From IMG/VR virus record IMGVR_UViG_3300025727_000053, positions 1 to 23,399 of that record: a stretch of DNA of 23,399 nucleotides; one strand, given 5' to 3'. Positions 8,575-22,995 of this stretch are shown here, one piece after another. How positions within the stretch are numbered: position 1 is the stretch's first letter; each line of letters starts with the position of its first letter. The DNA is from a virus. The translations under genes were made by a program, and so were the position numbers. The notes beneath the pieces were generated by a model. That model made no database searches, was not told where the DNA came from, and saw only the letters and a list, made by a program, of their open reading frames with translations.

Positions 8575-10757
8575 GACGAAGCAACCTTGTCGGTGTTTGA
8601 CTCAATCTCGTCAAGTCGAATCCACTCTCCGGTGCTGTGACTGCGATATTCAAATTCAGCGTAATCAGCAAACGGCTCGTTGGTTTCCCAAGTCACTGTC
8701 GCTTTTGTCACAAGCGTGTCATCAGGAGCAATATTGTCTAGGGATTTTGGTGCATACGTTATTTCCTCATTCCCCACCATATTTGTTGGCGGCAAACAAG
8801 TGTCGAGATTTGGTAGATTTGTGTCTGGCTTTATGTCATCGTGAATCACCAGATCGGACAAGTCATAAACTGATTCATCGTACTCTCGACACCCGATTAA
8901 GATTTCATCGTTGGGTTGCAACGACATTTTCAATATCCGAAACGGTTTAGCTTCCCACCCCGGCGTAGGATGTGTAACGTTGATAACATCACCGACCTCA
9001 ACAACTAGCCCAACGATGGTTGCCGTGAACTCTACATAGATTTGTTGTCGTGACTGTTTCAGATTAGCCAAGGCAATCTGTTGCGCTGTTGCCATGTCGC
9101 TTGTGAACGGCAGTTTAAGATCGGCTTGCAGAACAAGATTATTGTCGAGTTCTTTGAGTTCGTCACGCTCGACAACCACTTGGTCATCCTGCCACGTTTC
9201 TTCCTTGTTGAAAAATCTAGCCCTGACAGAGTTGAATGTGTTTGATTTATCCCCTAAAGAAATGCTCCATGAGCCAGTGATATTGTTTGCATTCGCTGTG
9301 CCAGTTACGGTCGTTGGCTTGTCTACGATGAGCCTATATTTGCCACCCGAAAAAACCATCATTCCTCTGCAACTTGTCAATAAGTCGCTCAAATTGCTCA
9401 TCGCTTTTTTATCTACATCGACCACGCCATTGCAGGTGTATCGTTTAGCCGCTAGGTCTTGTCCTTGAAACAATATATCAAGACTAGCACCTCTATCATA
9501 GTTCATAACCAAATCTGGATTGGTGACCACTTTGATGCTCGTCAACGCGATAGGGTCATTCAGAGTGATGGTAACCGTTGCTCCCCTGTGGCTTCGATTT
9601 CCTAACCAATAACTATCTGATGCGGATATTTCTCCACCGGGCAATCCGTGTGACGTTGCCAACAATGTCGGGTCAAGAATATTACCGACAGCAAATCTAT
9701 CGTCAAGGGTTTCAGATGCTTCAATCGTTACGCCGTTGCTGTAACTTGCCTTAGTTAATGAATGATCTATTCTGTCACCCACATCAAACTCAACACCATC
9801 GACCAATAAACGCAATGCCCCGAATGCAGGATGTGTCTCTGTAGCGCTAACCGTTATGATGATTTTTTTCACACCGCTAAATGTTGCCGGAACATCGCTC
9901 GTCACCGCGTATTCTTCTTGAGTCGCAACGCCTGTCTGATATGGCACAGCCAGTGTTGCAATGTCCTGCATCTTGGCATCGCTTGTGCCTTTCGTCACCA
10001 GTTCATCACAATAATCTGCCGCAACGATAATCGCCGCATCATCTATGTGAACTTCATCAATTCCGCGCCCATATACCTTGTTAGTCAGATAATCTCTAAT
10101 ACAAAGTGCCGGATTATCACTCCAAGCATCAGCGCCAGTTCTTGGGTCATGTACTTTCACGCCTTTCACATCGAACGTGAATGTTGGTATCCCGGAGAAA
10201 AAGACCTTTCTATCATGGTAGAGTCGAACGTATATATATGCCACCCCACTCAGTTTATGATTTGCAGTCCACTGGTCTGGCATGCGCTCAATCAGATTTT
10301 CATCGGCAACCTGATCCCATGCGCCAAGATGTTCGTTGAACTCTACAACCGGAACACCTCCATGAGATACGCCGAACCGCTCATTCACAACACCATCAAT
10401 TTCATACTGTGTGTCGTTAATCCAAATCTGTTCAAACGATTCAATTTCACCCTCGGCAATCGCAAGAACTATATGAAGTTCTCTATGATTCTTTTCGGAT
10501 GACCCAACAAAAACCCTAGTTGCTCCAACCCTACGCTCACCATAAATCACCTTTATTGGCGCAAGCGCAGACGCTTTATTTGCAAGCATTCCTTGGCTGT
10601 CCATGCTTGGCATGTCCTCGCCCAGAAGTTTTTGCATACCATAACTGACAGCCATAGCAACGCCAACTTTCGCCGCCGCAATAGCCACAGTTACCACTGT
10701 CGTTGCTGTACCATACGACATACCCATTGCCATCAGGTACGGGACTAACGCAGGCAT
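8571..10757 (-). CDS. Tail tip host-specificity protein J, N-terminal part (split gene)
   Basis: 728 aa from ATG 10757, chosen because GAGGT lies 6 nt upstream; a GTG 15 nt earlier lacks a site. Residues 1-45 are hydrophobic and glycine/alanine-rich (MAMGMSYGTATTVVTVAIAAA), like lambda gpI ends. Then comes the conserved J core: LANKASALAPIKVIYGERRVG, VFVGSSEKNHRELHIVLAIAEGEI, SGVAYIYVRL, and NPALCIRDYLT. Unusually, an insert-like beta domain occurs around 265-430. The C-terminus enters a fibronectin III domain (TVTWETNEPFADYAEFEYRS) but stops after ASS at TGA 8573-8571, in mid-domain. The missing half starts in the next ORF, overlapping by 4 bp. J recognises the host receptor and starts infection. 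Confidence 0.9.
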   Translation of the reverse strand: MPALVPYLMAMGMSYGTATTVVTVAIAAAKVGVAMAVSYGMQKLLGEDMPSMDSQGMLANKASALAPIKVIYGERRVGATRVFVGSSEKNHRELHIVLAIAEGEIESFEQIWINDTQYEIDGVVNERFGVSHGGVPVVEFNEHLGAWDQVADENLIERMPDQWTANHKLSGVAYIYVRLYHDRKVFFSGIPTFTFDVKGVKVHDPRTGADAWSDNPALCIRDYLTNKVYGRGIDEVHIDDAAIIVAADYCDELVTKGTSDAKMQDIATLAVPYQTGVATQEEYAVTSDVPATFSGVKKIIITVSATETHPAFGALRLLVDGVEFDVGDRIDHSLTKASYSNGVTIEASETLDDRFAVGNILDPTLLATSHGLPGGEISASDSYWLGNRSHRGATVTITLNDPIALTSIKVVTNPDLVMNYDRGASLDILFQGQDLAAKRYTCNGVVDVDKKAMSNLSDLLTSCRGMMVFSGGKYRLIVDKPTTVTGTANANNITGSWSISLGDKSNTFNSVRARFFNKEETWQDDQVVVERDELKELDNNLVLQADLKLPFTSDMATAQQIALANLKQSRQQIYVEFTATIVGLVVEVGDVINVTHPTPGWEAKPFRILKMSLQPNDEILIGCREYDESVYDLSDLVIHDDIKPDTNLPNLDTCLPPTNMVGNEEITYAPKSLDNIAPDDTLVTKATVTWETNEPFADYAEFEYRSHSTGEWIRLDEIESNTDKVASS

Positions 10758-13931: not shown

Positions 13932-14426
13932 CGTCCTTACTCGCTTTGTGTTTTATATATATCCCCCACCCATAGAACTCGCGTAGGTTCATCTGCATAA
14001 TCTCAGCGACCGTTTTGTGTAGATGCTCTGCAAGTTGGAATGCGAACATCACCTCTGGGTCGCTAATCAGTTTTTTTCAAGTTCCTCCACTGTAGGCTCA
14101 TCTCGTCCAATTTCGGTAGCAATCCTTTCAAGGACCTCGCAATTAACTTCCTTGGTAAGTTCGTCAATTTGAACCTTGCGGAAAACCGGCTTGCCATCCT
14201 CATCCCACATATTATAGACAATGGTCAGCGCATAACTTTTGGCCTTTTGACCGCTTTCAGCAAGTTCGGTAATTTCGCATTTCTGCTGCAAAGTCATGGT
14301 CGGTCTTATGTAGAATGTGGTTTCCCATTCTTCGACATAAAACGACCTCGGTTTCTGAGTAAGCACCTTGCGCTGATGCGCTTTCGCTCGCTCCATTACA
14401 CTGAGGCCTGACGTTTTATCCGTCAT
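13921..14426 (-). CDS. Tail assembly chaperone GT fusion via -1 frameshift
   Basis: A -1 slip at A AAA AAC (14076-14070) converts the 119-aa G product into a 168-aa GT protein. The shifted frame is open for 49 codons: it begins LISDPEVMFAFQ, continues QLAEHLHKTVAEI and MQMNLREFYGWGIY, and ends KDDGK before TAA at 13923-13921. The 'EF..W..Y' pattern near the end is typical of T-type extensions. It fills the otherwise empty 135 bp before the tape measure gene and overlaps that start by 11 bp. In lambda the T part recruits the tube protein to the tape measure. Shift efficiency cannot be read from sequence. Confidence 0.9.
14005..14064 (-). other. Candidate frameshift-stimulating stem
   Basis: AGCGACC (14064-14058) and GGTCGCT (14011-14005) are perfectly complementary 7-bp arms. 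The first begins 5 nt after the slippery heptamer, a spacing typical of stimulatory structures. The loop is long (46 nt), so either internal folding or a longer-range interaction is needed. Confidence 0.45.
14067..14426 (-). CDS. Tail assembly chaperone, gpG-like
   Basis: 119 aa, the zero-frame product. gpG-like chaperones coat the tape measure protein during tail assembly and are absent from the virion. The protein is acidic at the C-terminus (IGRDEPTVEELEKN) and has a compact beta/helical centre (YVEEWETTFYIRPTMTLQQK) of the type common in such chaperones. The recognition rests mainly on its position between tube and tape-measure genes and on the slippery A AAA AAC at its last codons, immediately before the TGA stop. 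Without the shift, translation ends at 14067; with it, the GT form is made. Confidence 0.88.
   Translation of the reverse strand: MTDKTSGLSVMERAKAHQRKVLTQKPRSFYVEEWETTFYIRPTMTLQQKCEITELAESGQKAKSYALTIVYNMWDEDGKPVFRKVQIDELTKEVNCEVLERIATEIGRDEPTVEELEKN
14070..14076 (-). other. Programmed -1 frameshift slippery site A AAA AAC
   Basis: In the zero frame the codons are GAA AAA AAC TGA, so the last A of GAA plus AAA AAC forms the classic X XXY YYZ heptamer in correct phase. The stop follows directly, which tends to slow the ribosome there. This is one of the most efficient bacterial slippery sequences known. Confidence 0.92.
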
Positions 14427-17601: not shown

Positions 17602-18970
17602 CAGGCGTGTCCTCCTTTTCGGTAATCGGTTGTAGTCCATACTGAGCGGCCAGTTCTTTCTCTTTCTGCAACTGGTCGTACACATCTTCCAAATCACGGC
17701 CCTGAGTCGCTGCAATGTCGGTGAGTGATGTAATGCCCATCTGATAAGCTAACTGATGGGCCTGCATATCCTTAACTGGATCGACCCATGTCCACCCTCT
17801 AGGCTGCCAGTTCACATTCGTAAGTCGCTTGAAATCGGTTGCGGCATAACCAAGATTCGTGATATTTGCCGATAGCCATGCTTCAAACACTCTGCGGTGC
17901 AGATGTTCAACAAAGAACGACTGCTGTTGTCTCCACCGGTCACGTTCTTCAATCGTGCCGGAGCGAATAGAGGAAAAGTTAACCTGTGTTAAATCACCGG
18001 ATAAGGCGTGATAACTGACCCCCAACCCGGTTGCGATACCTTTAAGGACCGCAGAAACATAATCAGCGAAAGCACTGACCGGATGCTGTGGGTCAATCAT
18101 GCCCATCTCAACGCCCACCGGTAATTCGGTCATACCAAGACCACCGATGTCGTTCGGCAATCCATAATCGTTCTTGTCATCTTCCAGCCAATCGCCGGTT
18201 GGTGTTTTGTAATAGCCGATCTTTTTGGCTGAGAACTCGGCAGCAATCATTTCTGCGCGTTCATAACGGTTCAGCATCAACAAATGGATCATGGCCGGTG
18301 CTAACCACGATGCTCCACGCATTTGACCGGCTCGGTCAGTGCGGAAGATGTGGATAATCTCATCGGCTGGAACCCGGTCATACTCAACGCGCGGATTCTG
18401 GAAGATGCCCCCCGGATGATCGCCCGGATGACTTTTCGATAGATGATAGGCAACCGGTTTCGCTTGTCGGTCAACCTCAATGCCCTGCACGATGCGGTTT
18501 TCTGTCTCAGTGCGGTCACGATTCAATGCGTGATCGAGATAATCGGCCTCATAGACCATCAGTTTCAAGCCGTCCGAGTTAATCAGACGTATTAAAACCT
18601 CACCATCCCTGGCAACAGACCGCACGACCAAACGCTGGATGTCATGCCATGACAGTCTGCCGTCTGCGGAGCATTGGCGAGGCCTGCCCCACTGCATCCA
18701 TGCGGATTCGATAATTCGATTGGTGCGCTGATCTAGTTTCTTTTTAGAGGTTCGTGCCTTTGCTTGCAGCCGAATACCTTGTTCACCGATCATATTGACT
18801 TCGACCAGTTGGAGATATTTGGCCGCATAGTCGTTGTTCTGTTCTAAATCTCTGGCCCTTGCTCTGAGCGCTGTACCTTGCTCACGCAAATCCTGGTTAA
18901 TCTCTTTCGATTCTGAAATCCAATCTTTAACAACATTCGGTGATGCTGCCGCAAACATTCTCTTACTCAT
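17588..18970 (-). CDS. Portal protein, lambda gpB family
   Basis: 460 aa. Forms the dodecameric ring at the head vertex through which DNA enters and to which the connector binds. The N-terminal half shows the family pattern with DLEQNNDYAAKYLQLVEVNMIGEQGI (about 40-65, written in parts: LEQNNDYA and VEVNMIGEQGI), an IDQLRRGxxN-like core replaced by IRLINSDGLKLM, the stem/clip region with EIIHIFRTDRAGQMRGASWLAP, and a C-terminal helical part with ATGLGVSYHALSGDLTQVNFSS that is a hallmark of lambda-type portals. The tail is acidic (EKEDTPDDED). A good ribosome site (TGGAG) precedes the ATG at 18970. The stop overlaps the protease-capsid start by 14 bp. Confidence 0.95.
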   Translation of the reverse strand: MSKRMFAAASPNVVKDWISESKEINQDLREQGTALRARARDLEQNNDYAAKYLQLVEVNMIGEQGIRLQAKARTSKKKLDQRTNRIIESAWMQWGRPRQCSADGRLSWHDIQRLVVRSVARDGEVLIRLINSDGLKLMVYEADYLDHALNRDRTETENRIVQGIEVDRQAKPVAYHLSKSHPGDHPGGIFQNPRVEYDRVPADEIIHIFRTDRAGQMRGASWLAPAMIHLLMLNRYERAEMIAAEFSAKKIGYYKTPTGDWLEDDKNDYGLPNDIGGLGMTELPVGVEMGMIDPQHPVSAFADYVSAVLKGIATGLGVSYHALSGDLTQVNFSSIRSGTIEERDRWRQQQSFFVEHLHRRVFEAWLSANITNLGYAATDFKRLTNVNWQPRGWTWVDPVKDMQAHQLAYQMGITSLTDIAATQGRDLEDVYDQLQKEKELAAQYGLQPITEKEDTPDDED

Positions 18971-19524
18971 CCACGAACTCCAAAACGGCCACGTTCGCGA
19001 ACCGATATTTCTGCCACTGTCTTATCGCGCATCTGTTCTAACTCGGTCAGATCACCAAATGACATCGAACGGCCTGCAATTGAATAACTGCTGCTAGTCT
19101 TGCTGGATAGGGTTTCTATAGCTGTTTCCAGATTCGATAACCGTTTCCGCAAGTGTGAAATTGGGTCAGCAGAGTCGGTGCTGGAATCTTTATCCGCAAA
19201 TACCTTGAACAACCCGGTGCCGAGAGTGACCCGTTGGCTGTCGCTGTTGCGGATAATGTAGGATTGCCACTGATAGGTGCCGGTGGTCCATGTCGCTGTA
19301 ACTGCTGATGCGATTTCGATCAGATAGTCAACGCCCGATGCGACTGCGGTGATTTCGATCTCTGAAAGTCCATCCCCCTCTTTACGAGCCGCATATTTCA
19401 GCGTGTAGTCAGTGTTGGGATAGGCGGCATGAATATCTGAGCGCTTGAAAGCGACTCGATCCCCGACAACGATTGAAGTCGGTTCTGTGACGGCATAGTT
19501 TGCCGTGAGGAATTGGTTCTTCAT
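18967..19524 (-). CDS. Head-tail joining protein with C-terminal gpW-like domain
   Basis: 185 aa. Residues 1-110 look beta-rich (alternating hydrophobic strands, TDYTLKYAAR, VDYLIEIAS, YQWQSYIIR), like an immunoglobulin-type sandwich. After a Ser/Asp linker (about 112-120), residues 121-172 resemble lambda gpW: helix (LRKRLSNLETAIETL), beta hairpin (SYSIAGRSMSFGDL), then helix (LTELEQMRDKTVAEI). gpW plugs the portal after packaging and prepares the tail attachment site; lambda gpW is only about 68 aa. The position immediately before portal matches the lambda A-W-B order. The stop overlaps the portal start by 4 bp (ATGA). The ribosome site is weak (TGAGA). The role of the N-terminal domain is unknown; I infer gpW function from the C-terminal pattern and order. 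Confidence 0.7.
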   Translation of the reverse strand: MKNQFLTANYAVTEPTSIVVGDRVAFKRSDIHAAYPNTDYTLKYAARKEGDGLSEIEITAVASGVDYLIEIASAVTATWTTGTYQWQSYIIRNSDSQRVTLGTGLFKVFADKDSSTDSADPISHLRKRLSNLETAIETLSSKTSSSYSIAGRSMSFGDLTELEQMRDKTVAEISVRERGRFGVRG

Positions 19525-19547
19525 AGGCTAATTTTCTCAAATCAACC

Positions 19548-19576
19548 TGTCTAGTATCCATAGTGAAAACTAGACA
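19548..19576 (-). promoter_or_regulatory. 8-bp inverted repeat in leader of gpW-like gene
   Basis: Perfect arms TGTCTAGT (19548-19555) and ACTAGACA (19569-19576) with a 13-nt loop, ending 24 nt upstream of the ATG at 19524. In RNA it would form a small hairpin in the 5' leader; in DNA it could be an operator. There is no T run after it, so it is not an intrinsic terminator. Confidence 0.4.
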
Positions 19577-19601
19577 ATCTTTAGATGAAACCCCCTACTT
19601 C

Positions 19602-19658
19602 CACCTAAATATCACCTAAATGTGACATTTTTCACCTAAATATGACATTTTTTAGGTG
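19602..19658 (-). repeat. Operator-like direct repeats (ATTTAGGTG on the coding strand)
   Basis: Three exact 9-bp copies of CACCTAAAT on the plus strand at 19602-19610, 19613-19621 and 19633-19641, plus an inverted 8-bp copy TTTAGGTG at 19651-19658. Copies 2 and 3 belong to a 20-bp tandem unit differing at one base (CACCTAAATG/A then TGACATTTTT). Centre spacing is 11 and 20 bp, close to one and two helical turns, so a protein array could bind one face of the DNA. The spacing and position argue for protein-binding sites. Confidence 0.7.
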
Positions 19659-19662
19659 TCAA
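19657..19662 (-). promoter_or_regulatory. Candidate -35 hexamer TTGACA
   Basis: Perfect sigma-70 -35 hexamer on the coding strand within the repeat-rich region. At 17 bp spacing the -10 position reads TTAGGT, a poor match, and lies inside one of the ATTTAGGTG repeats. This would fit a promoter needing an activator, or one blocked by a repressor at the repeats. The match could also be chance. Confidence 0.35.
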
Positions 19663-19723
19663 CCATAAACCCATTAAATTCGCGGCCTCCAGCATGGGTG
19701 ACACCCACTTTTTGATGGTTGAC
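19658..19723. repeat. 9-bp inverted repeat GTCAACCAT/ATGGTTGAC
   Basis: Perfect 9-bp arms at 19658-19666 and 19715-19723, 48 bp apart. The core AACCAT recurs twice more at 19746-19751 and 19760-19765, giving four copies in about 110 bp. Probably binding sites for one regulator, with one site overlapping the TTGACA element. Confidence 0.6.
19695..19707. promoter_or_regulatory. Perfect 13-bp palindrome, operator candidate
   Basis: TGGGTG-A-CACCCA: two perfect 6-bp arms around one central base. It sits midway between the arms of a larger inverted repeat (GTCAACCAT at 19658-19666, ATGGTTGAC at 19715-19723). This layout is typical of a dimeric repressor or activator site. It is too short, and without a T run, to be an intrinsic terminator. 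Confidence 0.5.
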
Positions 19724-19741
19724 GGTAAATAACTGGTCAGG

Positions 19742-19765
19742 TGCCAACCATTGACTGCCAACCAT
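19742..19765 (-). repeat. Tandem TGCCAACCAT elements
   Basis: Two exact 10-bp copies at 19742-19751 and 19756-19765, period 14 bp, just downstream of the Mor-like stop codon. They share the AACCAT core with the inverted repeat nearby. Likely regulator sites; no other function can be read from them. Confidence 0.5.
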
Positions 19766-19773
19766 CGAGTGTG

Positions 19774-20028
19774 TTAGTGCGAATTAATGATCTGATAGAC
19801 CCTTGCGCGGCTGATACCGAACCGCACCATAACTTGCTGAACATTACGGCCATTCCACATCAATCGTACTGAGCGAGAATCGACCCGGTTGCGTACCGGC
19901 ACATAAACATAGCCACTGGCATACTCTCTGCGAATGGCATCCCATAGCTTTTGTTCCAGTTCTTCCTGCGTATCATCGTCCAGACCACTATCAGCCATGA
20001 CTGTCGATATAATGTCAGCTAAAGCCAC
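19774..20028 (-). CDS. Mor-like transcription activator (small HTH protein)
   Basis: 84 aa from a GTG start. I chose GTG at 20028 because AGGAGG lies 6 nt upstream of it, whereas the longer ATG at 20055 has no ribosome site; the GTG overlaps the large-terminase stop by 10 bp. The N-terminal half is acidic and helical (dimerisation-like, DDDTQEELEQKL). Next comes a short beta element YVYVP, then the C-terminal helix-turn-helix with WNGRNVQQVMVRFGIS and VYQII. The same order (VYIP, then NGRNV, YGV, VYKAI) is found in Mu Mor and related C proteins, which activate middle or late promoters by binding dyads near -35. Family membership is inferred from that motif pattern. Directly downstream lies the only large non-coding region of the window, full of repeats, making this the likely regulator of the structural operon. 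It could instead be a structural or packaging accessory with a Mor-type fold. Confidence 0.8.
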   Translation of the reverse strand: MALADIISTVMADSGLDDDTQEELEQKLWDAIRREYASGYVYVPVRNRVDSRSVRLMWNGRNVQQVMVRFGISRARVYQIINSH

Positions 20029-21794
20029 GCTCCACCTCCTTGCGGTGAGTTCCATCGTTGTTTTGGTGGTTGCTCTGTTTTCTTCGGTTCATCGACAACT
20101 TTCTTCGTTGTCGGTGCTAACAACCGCAATGCAGCCAATGCGTACACCCGGCAATCAAGCGCTTCATTTCTTGGCCGTGTCTGAACCCATTCTTGCCGAG
20201 GTCTGCCTTTGTTGTACCGTGTTACCAACTTTTCAGCCGTTAATTGCTCAAAATACTCGTCATCATAGTCGGCCTGATTGGGGAAATGACAGTAAGCAGC
20301 GCCCGGCTCAGTTATCTTGAGTCGTGAATAGATAATTGATTTACCCTGATCGACCCCAATTGGCTCCGGTGCAAAGGCTCGTTTGCGCTTCTTCCGCAGC
20401 CTGGCGTTGCGTTTCTGTGTATCCTGAACCAACGGTAACCCTTGGCCTGACACCCCTTTGATCGCCCAGACCCATCGTTTGCGGTCAACCCAATTGTAAA
20501 CAAGTTGGGTGTTATAGCCTGAGTCGATGCACATACCATCCGGCTGCAAATCAGCAACGACATCATCAAGTGCTGACCAAACCTCTTGGCGTGTTGTGTC
20601 ACCGGGAACAATGATGTATTCCAACCCCCAAGATTCTTCACCCTCACCCCAGCCAACCAATTCCAACTCAATCCTGTCTTTTTGGACATCGGCCCCGATA
20701 GTCCTCCACAATATCGGTGGCTCATCATATTCCTCTCGCCTGAGTATCAGTGAATTAGGGTCGGCTTGCTCCCCTTGTTCTTCCCATGTCTCGCCCAGAA
20801 CCGTATTGACCCATGTCTTGAGTTGTTCTTCACCGACCTTTTTAGCCGCTAAGAAGTCAGCCACAGCATCGGACCATGAGTACCACCCAACCGGTGAATA
20901 CAGGCTGCTGAGATGGAATCCGGTAAACCGGCCCTCACTCGTTGCTCGCCATTCACCATCACTCAGTAACTTTGTCTTGTTCGACTCCGGCACAATCACC
21001 CCACAATGCTGACAAGTCATTGCTGCTGTGTCTGGGTCGTTGTCTGTCCAGGTAATCATCTTCCATTCCAATACCTGAAACTCACCGCACTCAGGACAGG
21101 GGATGAAATAACGCCTTTGGTCAGATTGCTCGTAATAATCCTCAATGGCTGAGATACCCTTGATTGTGGGTGTGGACACAATGAATATCTTGCGGTTACG
21201 TTTATAGGTTGCCGTCCTGCGAATCGCTAACTGGATCGGGTCACCCTCACCGTCCAAGTCCGTTGGATAGCCATCGACCTCATCCATGAATAGATAACGT
21301 GCTGGCATTGAGCGCAATCCAATGGCTGAATTTGCACCGGTCAGAATGAGTGTTCCACCGGGATAGTCTTTCTGAAATAGTGTGTTGCCGGAATCCCTCG
21401 CTCTAGCCACAGCAACCTTTGCTTTGACCTCTGGAATAGCATCAATCATCGGAGCAATACGCTGTTTGCTTGCTCTTTTAGCAGCGTCAACTGTCGGCAT
21501 AACGTAGAGCATCGGTGCAGGGGCATGGTGAATCGTGTAGCCGAGCCAGTTATTACCGGCCTCGGTTGCGCCAATCTGCGCCCCTTTCATGAACACCACA
21601 ATGCTCTCAGGCCGTGTTGCCGACAAGCAGTCCATGATTTCTTTCAGGTACGGTGTTCGCCGGGTGCGCCACTTGCCCGGCTCACTTGATGCAGCCTGAT
21701 CGAGCAGACGATACTGGTCAGACCACTCGGAAACAGTGACATCAGGTTCTGCCAGGATTGCGGCAGCAACAGAAGTACAGTAAGCACTAGCCAT
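20019..21794 (-). CDS. Terminase large subunit, GpA-type ATPase/nuclease
   Basis: 591 aa, the usual length for lambda GpA-family terminases. It drives ATP-dependent DNA translocation into the prohead and cuts concatemers. Visible parts: Walker A-like KGAQIGATEA at 70-79 (variant P-loop typical of the family), Walker B LFMDEVDGY at 168-176 with D171/E172, coupling motif STPT at 207-210, a four-cysteine zinc knuckle CPEC (233/236) and CQHC (261/264), and an RNase H-like nuclease with likely acidic residues D369 (GADVQKD), D424 (CIDSG) and D547 (EALDC). The C-terminus is proline- and lysine-rich. GpA-type terminases are usually cos-cutting, so cohesive ends are likely; this is inference. The start ATG overlaps the methyltransferase stop by 8 bp. 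Confidence 0.97.
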   Translation of the reverse strand: MASAYCTSVAAAILAEPDVTVSEWSDQYRLLDQAASSEPGKWRTRRTPYLKEIMDCLSATRPESIVVFMKGAQIGATEAGNNWLGYTIHHAPAPMLYVMPTVDAAKRASKQRIAPMIDAIPEVKAKVAVARARDSGNTLFQKDYPGGTLILTGANSAIGLRSMPARYLFMDEVDGYPTDLDGEGDPIQLAIRRTATYKRNRKIFIVSTPTIKGISAIEDYYEQSDQRRYFIPCPECGEFQVLEWKMITWTDNDPDTAAMTCQHCGVIVPESNKTKLLSDGEWRATSEGRFTGFHLSSLYSPVGWYSWSDAVADFLAAKKVGEEQLKTWVNTVLGETWEEQGEQADPNSLILRREEYDEPPILWRTIGADVQKDRIELELVGWGEGEESWGLEYIIVPGDTTRQEVWSALDDVVADLQPDGMCIDSGYNTQLVYNWVDRKRWVWAIKGVSGQGLPLVQDTQKRNARLRKKRKRAFAPEPIGVDQGKSIIYSRLKITEPGAAYCHFPNQADYDDEYFEQLTAEKLVTRYNKGRPRQEWVQTRPRNEALDCRVYALAALRLLAPTTKKVVDEPKKTEQPPKQRWNSPQGGGAWL

Positions 21795-22995
21795 TAACTA
21801 ATTCTGCTTTCTTACCAGTGAAATCCTCCCACCGCTTAACAATCACATCGCAATACTTTGGGTCTAGTTCCATCAGGTAAGCGTTGCGGTTGGTCTTTTC
21901 GCAAGCAATGAGGGTTGAGCCAGAGCCACCAAAGCAATCATGAATCACATCACCACCCTTACTACTGTTCAGTAATCCCTTTTCAATTAACTCAACAGGC
22001 TTTTGTGTTGGGTGTACATATTGCCCCGTCCCACCTCTGCTCATATACCACACATCCGACTGCGCTTTATCTCCATGCCATTGACCACCACAATAAAAGA
22101 TAAACTCATGTTGTGGTCGATAGTCACTACGACCAAGACCTATGCTTTTTTTATCCCATACAATACACGCTGACGGCTTGAGACCAATTGAAGTTAATGC
22201 CGCATGGAACTCGGCGTAAGTTCTCCATGTAAAACAAATATAAGATGCGACTCCACTTTTAGCACCCATAATGGCATTGCTAATGCTATCTGCCACCATT
22301 GCCAACAAGTCATCTCCTTTTAAATCATCGCCTATTATCATTCCGTGCGCTTTTACAAGCGCACCTTTGGTTGTAGAGCCAGCCGCTCTCCCACCGCCGT
22401 ATGCCATTCCGTATGGTGGGTCAGTGAATACCATGTCAGCCTTAACACCACCCATCAACAACTCAACCGCATCGATGCTGGTGCTATCGCCACACATCAA
22501 TCGATGATTGCCAAGTTGGTAAATATCGCCCAGCTTGGTGGTCGGTTCTTCTGGAACTTCTGGAACTTCATCTTCGTCCGTTAATCCCTCAACCTCTGGA
22601 TTCGCATCCATAGCATCGAGTTCATCAATCGTGAATCCAAGCAAATCAATATCAAAGTCGAGCGCTTGTAGTTCTTCGATCTCAATCGACAACATCTCCA
22701 AATCCCAATCAGCGTTCAGTGCTAATTTGTTGTCAGCGATTATGTACGCTTTCTTTTGTGCCTCTGACAAATCACCCAACCGAATACACGGCACATTCTT
22801 TAGACCTAACTTCTGCGCTCCCATTAGTCTGCCATGCCCGGCAATGATGCCGTTATCTTTGTCGATGAGGATTGGATTGGTGAACCCGAACTCCTTGATG
22901 CTTGCCGCTATCTGACTGACCTGATTGCTGTCGTGAGTCCGTGAGTTGTTGATGTAAGGTATTAAGTCATCTGCTGCTATTTGCTCAACTTTCAT
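21787..22995 (-). CDS. ParB-domain DNA methyltransferase, beta class (N4-cytosine/N6-adenine)
   Basis: 402 aa. Residues 1-95 are a ParB/sulfiredoxin-like nuclease-fold domain with the box IIAGHGRLMGAQKLGL (about 50-65). An acidic linker (about 130-152, EDEVPEVPEEP) leads to an amino-methyltransferase: catalytic motif IV TDPPYGMAYGGG at 191-202, HPTQKPVEL at 328-336, and SAM-binding motif I CFGGSGST at 354-361. Motif IV precedes motif I, the order of beta-class N4/N6 enzymes. DPPY fits adenine-N6 best but does not prove it. It most likely modifies phage DNA against host restriction, or acts in epigenetic control; the ParB part may guide DNA binding. No restriction endonuclease is adjacent, so it looks like an orphan enzyme. 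It sits between small and large terminase genes, overlapping both (11 and 8 bp), so it is co-expressed with packaging. Confidence 0.93.
   Translation of the reverse strand: MKVEQIAADDLIPYINNSRTHDSNQVSQIAASIKEFGFTNPILIDKDNGIIAGHGRLMGAQKLGLKNVPCIRLGDLSEAQKKAYIIADNKLALNADWDLEMLSIEIEELQALDFDIDLLGFTIDELDAMDANPEVEGLTDEDEVPEVPEEPTTKLGDIYQLGNHRLMCGDSTSIDAVELLMGGVKADMVFTDPPYGMAYGGGRAAGSTTKGALVKAHGMIIGDDLKGDDLLAMVADSISNAIMGAKSGVASYICFTWRTYAEFHAALTSIGLKPSACIVWDKKSIGLGRSDYRPQHEFIFYCGGQWHGDKAQSDVWYMSRGGTGQYVHPTQKPVELIEKGLLNSSKGGDVIHDCFGGSGSTLIACEKTNRNAYLMELDPKYCDVIVKRWEDFTGKKAELVNG

Follow-up and report, generated by a model that had tools for sequence, protein, structure and literature searches.

A Mor-type protein encoded between the packaging and head genes of this virus very probably starts transcription of the structural genes, binding a conserved dyad in place of a -35 element so that the message would begin at or near the start codon of the head-tail-joining (HTJ) gene. 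This reading comes from comparing the window, a stretch of 23,399 nucleotides from an IMG/VR record, with about 200 related loci gathered by scans for the terminase large subunit (TerL), HTJ and Mor. Sequence comparison supports the Mor family assignment, the dyad, the spacing of the -10 hexamer, the linkage between mor and the dyad, and the covariation between protein residues and dyad bases. A Mor-type switch would thereby stand at an unusual spot, the terminase/head junction, in a group of mostly uncultivated phages. The features of the locus are collected in Table 1.

Table 1. Positions of the features at the terminase/head junction, numbered along the window.
Feature	Position	Strand	Evidence
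HTJ gene, 185 aa, first of the proposed structural unit	18967..19524	-	PHROG 5774, 7.3e-25
Predicted transcription start, on the HTJ start codon or a few nt from it	19524	-	Inference: -10 at -12..-7 from ATG; weak Shine-Dalgarno in mor loci
-10-like hexamer GAAAAT, at +12 from the dyad (+11 in most relatives)	19531..19536	-	-10-like signal in 20 sites
Dyad TGTCTAGTTTTCACTATGGATACTAGACA, proposed Mor operator replacing the -35 element	19548..19576	-	Position test, covarying arms, absence from 52 mor-less loci
Three CACCTAAAT repeats	19602..19641	+	Seen in the window and close relatives only
Four ATGGTTGRC-type repeats	19655..19765	19655, 19740, 19754 on -; 19715 on +	Seen in close relatives only
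mor-like activator gene, 84 aa, GTG start	19774..20028	-	Pfam Mor match, homologues, PDB profile matches
Recognition-helix codons, residues 74-82 (R74 A75 R76 V77 Y78 Q79 ...)	19783..19809	-	AlphaFold2 helix 74-82; residues 75, 76 and 79 covary with dyad bases
Shine-Dalgarno AAGGAGG of mor	20035..20041	-	Sequence and L003 alignment
gpA-type terminase large subunit, just upstream of mor	20019..21794	-	Pfam GpA_ATPase 1.7e-96, GpA_nuclease 1e-77

The mor gene and its surroundings

The genes run in the order TerS, ParB-methylase, TerL, Mor, gap, HTJ, portal, protease/capsid and tail. mor and the 3' end of the TerL gene share 10 nt, and the GTG start codon of mor is an ATG at the same place in a 93%-identical relative, L003. 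The preliminary description, made from the window alone, had pointed to a repeat-rich gap of 249 bp between mor and the head and tail genes (19525-19773), which both the gene order and the repeat counts bear out. This gap contains no credible ORF, and we found no sigma-70 promoter in it and no known RNA family in the window. The same description had called the operon otherwise gapless, which is incorrect: the minus-strand operon has one other gap, of 135 nt at 13932-14066, located after a 119-aa ORF (14067-14426). The remainder of a G/T-type tail-assembly chaperone, reached by frameshifting, may be encoded in this second gap.

A Mor-type helix-turn-helix had also been proposed for the 84-aa protein, and profile searches confirm the Mor match. 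Pfam PF08765 (Mor) matches at 30.2-30.7 bits, above the curated cut-off of 24.9 bits, PHROG 532 ("late transcriptional activator") matches at 1.7e-9, and Pfam Mor is found in all 13 homologues scanned (E<=0.1). When a profile of the homologues is compared with the PDB, chains of Mu C and Mor rank at the top (9l0x and 9vw8 best, with 1rr7 and 9l0y among the top matches). Comparison of a predicted structure with Mor, the check suggested at the outset, points the same way more weakly: the first seven Foldseek matches of the AlphaFold2 model (pLDDT 82.5, pTM 0.44) are all Mor or C, but they are weak (E 0.011 or worse, TM ~0.42). Judged by its sequence, the 84-aa product is a Mor/C-family (PF08765) protein. 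Proteins of named phages match it only weakly, and we found no DNA similarity of the window to named phages.

The window phage has a circularly permuted sister genome, a 35.5-kb contig (L193/L194) that is 99.8-100% identical to it and probably complete because its ends overlap. This contig carries an integrase-like gene at 28453 and a repressor-like gene at 24312, both named by eye.

A conserved dyad linked to mor

HTJ-bearing loci fall into two classes, those with mor between TerL and HTJ and those with no mor. In the window and its relatives, mor is followed by a dyad of 26-28 bp, as in the mor-class example GTCTAGTTTTTGCCTTAAAACTAGAC upstream of HTJ, and in most loci 22-24 nt separate it from the start codon. 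The arms of the window dyad read GTCTAG...CTAGAC (19549-19575) and lie about 37 nt upstream of the HTJ start codon. In 11 of 12 mor lineages the dyad scores best when centered -36.5 to -38.5 relative to the start of HTJ; in the window, the best position ties with one other place, and in L118 the dyad is weak and its position ambiguous. The summed score of this position test is 105 as opposed to 58 +/- 4.2 for shuffled sequences, none of which reached 105 in 2000 attempts. The two arms also covary across the alignment (0.341 versus 0.116 when shuffled, 0/500).

The dyad is tied to the presence of mor. Its mean score is 8.77 in mor loci and 4.95 in mor-less control loci (p 2e-7), and a covariance model built from the mor-class sites has no match at E<=1 in 52 mor-less loci (358 kb). 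The same model matches the held-out loci L171-173, L177 (two copies), L179 and L180, while the sites of L174 and the prophages are not convincingly detected. A pattern scan of IMG/VR, which sought exact matches to a near-consensus dyad at two spacings, returned nine contigs. L008 and L091 were already in the design set, and three of the five further distinct sequences (L177, L179 and L180) are new loci with mor, dyad and HTJ. Neither mor nor a terminase gene occurs close to the pattern matches L176/L178 and L181/L182, which we regarded as unrelated. Mor homologues that are not accompanied by the dyad occur in L165-L170, beside a terminase-like gene, and in L227. On this comparative evidence, the likely operator is the dyad at 19548-19576. 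The sister genome shows only this one dyad.

Several relatives have extra genes inserted downstream of mor or HTJ, ahead of the structural gene that comes next (L177, 2900-7200; L157, 4700-5100; L090, 5300-6000), and in L157 and L177 a second copy of the dyad precedes the gene that follows the insertion. In L177 this second copy stands upstream of protease/capsid, behind the inserted gene. Terminator-like hairpins, identified by eye, are present just upstream of this copy and of the dyad in L090.

Probable promoter geometry and recognition of the dyad

A -10-like hexamer accompanies the dyad at a nearly fixed distance. At 11 nt after the dyad, the mean match to TATAAT is 3.65/6 over 20 sites and 4.0/6 over the held-out sites (0/5000 shuffles), compared with about 1.1 to 2.3 at other offsets. 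The pattern xAxxxT occupies this +11 position in 13 of the 20 sites, including 6 of 7 held-out ones. The window hexamer is a poor match and stands at +12 instead of +11, L218 lacks a -10 where one is expected, and L180 also departs from the pattern. The end of the hexamer is 6-8 nt from the HTJ start codon in most sites (10 nt in L174 and in the first copy of L177). The Shine-Dalgarno sequence upstream of HTJ is also weaker in mor loci than in mor-less loci (mean -0.7 versus -4.7 kcal/mol, p 2e-6). The closeness of the hexamer to the start codon, together with the weak Shine-Dalgarno, suggests that the structural message is possibly leaderless; an exception is L157, whose first copy has a Shine-Dalgarno-bearing leader. 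In the window, the -10 region upstream of HTJ also lies within a second inverted repeat, AGGTTGATTT...AAATTAGCCT (19525-19548), and short inverted repeats of this type occur at other positions in L092 and L115.

The two classes of loci differ at the -35 position. Loci that carry mor lack a -35 hexamer correctly spaced relative to the -10, and two of them contain TTGACA only as the right arm of the dyad. By comparison, an exact TTGACA occurs in the 90 nt upstream of HTJ in 21 of 40 sampled mor-less loci, frequently with a properly spaced -10. What sets the classes apart is how many loci have the exact TTGACA; the mean best TTGACA and promoter scores do not differ between them (p 0.40 and 0.13).

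To look for covariation between protein and DNA, we paired every Mor column with every arm position across 16 loci. The highest-ranking pairs all involve the recognition helix: base 5 goes with residues 79 and 76, and base 3 with residue 75. Permutation, a procedure that ignores phylogeny, gave a maximum as high as the observed one in 1 of 300 runs. At residue 75, A or S goes with C at base 3, R with G, and Q with A (left arm only); at residue 79, Q or D goes with A at base 5 and R with C. Independent changes on the HTJ tree are concordant with the base in 4/4 and 3/3 cases, or 7/7 in total, which are small numbers (sign tests, p 0.125 and 0.25 for each alone). The prophages L221 and L225, Mor loci of bacterial genomes that were fetched later, fit both the residue-base code and the +11 hexamer; their dyads came from the output of a generic inverted-repeat scan. 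L213, L226 and L218 fit the code wholly or partly, with dyads that, like that of L174, were chosen by eye with the model in mind. The L097 dyad reads GTCGCA, for which the code would predict A or S at residue 75 and R at residue 79. Residues 75 and 79 of the Mor recognition helix thus appear, from this covariation, to read dyad bases 3 and 5. Natural variation here yields a probable DNA site, a promoter geometry and a residue-to-base code, and so turns an annotation into exact predictions for the bench.

In the scheme that we infer, which extends to binding, activation rather than repression, the start site, leaderless translation and temporal order, Mor would be translated from the packaging (TerS-methylase-TerL) message. 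A Mor dimer or higher oligomer would then bind the dyad just downstream of its own gene through the recognition helix of its helix-turn-helix, so that the dyad occupies the place of the -35 element with the -10-like hexamer 11-12 nt further on. Bound Mor would recruit the host RNA polymerase to begin the HTJ-portal-capsid-tail message on the HTJ start codon or very close to it, and this message may be leaderless.

Two other roles for the dyad seem highly unlikely to us. It could form an RNA hairpin in a message that reads through TerL, Mor and HTJ, acting in translation or mRNA processing with no promoter in the gap. The covarying arms, the location 22-24 nt upstream of the start codon in most loci and the folding of the region as RNA (z -2.64 versus shuffles) are all consistent with a hairpin, but a hairpin would not require a TATAAT-like hexamer at fixed spacing or covariation with helix-turn-helix residues of the neighboring protein, nor does it call for presence in mor loci only or for copies right after terminator-like hairpins. 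The Mor-like protein could alternatively be a repressor at the dyad, or solely an autoregulator, with another factor driving the structural genes. Activation and repression look the same in sequence, and the dyad does overlap the -35 region, yet the characterized relatives Mor and C are activators (PMC4390567, PMC4461284), and there would be little to repress because mor loci have no -35 hexamer properly spaced to the -10. The dyad also lies downstream of mor and not upstream. Activation from the dyad is the reading that we retain.

The preliminary description had the activator working from a site in the gap, which the mor-linked dyad with its -10 and the helix covariation support, but it had pointed to the repeats as that site and had suggested checking relatives for the co-occurrence of mor and repeats. 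Within the window, all three copies of CACCTAAAT (expected 0.16) and all four copies of ATGGTTGRCRSY (expected 0.06) fall inside the gap, a clustering well above chance that recurs nowhere else in the 35.5-kb sister genome, and both families are kept with few changes in the 93% relative. That CACCTAAAT and the ATGGTTGRC repeats are Mor operators is nevertheless barely credible, and we rejected them as such: they are confined to the window and its 93-100% identical relatives, they are absent from the other mor loci, with gaps down to 46 bp, and between the window and L088 they are slightly less conserved than the dyad (92.3% versus 100%, 30/30 identical).

Relation to Mu and possible exchange of the switch

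The closest characterized counterpart is Mor of phage Mu, whose element of 16 bp has two 5-bp inverted repeats centered at -43.5 and replaces the -35 (PMC4390567; footprint data in PMC4287176). Both systems share the Pfam Mor family, a dyad standing in the place of the -35 and a recognizable -10 (PMC4390567), and in Mu, as proposed here, the target promoter lies directly downstream of the activator gene (AF083977: mor 8781-9170, middle promoter Pm 9163-9233). The 16-bp, -43.5 architecture is not found here; the dyad is 26-28 bp long and centered near -37 from the predicted start, or -36.5 to -38.5 from the start codon, and its sequence differs as well. Mu Mor has 129 aa and controls the middle operon, whereas the 84-aa protein is encoded inside the packaging/head operon. 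Mu C, another member of the Mor/C family and the source of the best PDB profile matches (9l0x and 9vw8), switches on the late genes from several separate promoters (lys, I, P and mom; PMC4461284), in contrast to the one dyad in the sister genome of the window phage. In seven named phages, namely Mu, Pasteurella AFS-2018a, Pseudomonas Bise and Tom33, Shewanella MuM16-1 and two Vibrio phages, we saw no similar dyad downstream of mor.

The lambda Q antiterminator and the RinA-type activators are functional analogs, in which one late regulator controls the packaging and morphogenesis genes, although to our knowledge they are unrelated to the Mor-like protein. The switch proposed here differs from them in its location between the terminase and head genes and not upstream of the late operon.

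The portal phylogeny places the window clade beside a clade that mostly carries TTGACA (SH-aLRT 94). A single Mor clade was rejected, as this tree needs 2 to 5 state changes for mor. We see about an even chance that the activator gene, dyad and -10 form a portable module that has been swapped several times with ordinary TTGACA promoters where packaging genes meet morphogenesis genes in lambda-like phages, with a leaderless structural message, HTJ made chiefly from Mor-activated transcripts, and operator recognition by a simple code (residue 75, A/S-C and R-G at base 3; residue 79, Q-A and R-C at base 5). Since this junction carries Mor with its dyad in some relatives and a consensus promoter in others, the group is suitable for studying the exchange of regulatory modules.

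A further difference among close relatives concerns the ParB-methyltransferase fusion between TerS and TerL (window 21787-22995, L003 405-1595). Its best BLAST segment in L003 is only 61% identical, as opposed to 95-99% for its neighbors TerL, Mor and HTJ, which suggests that the specificity part of the fusion has been replaced.
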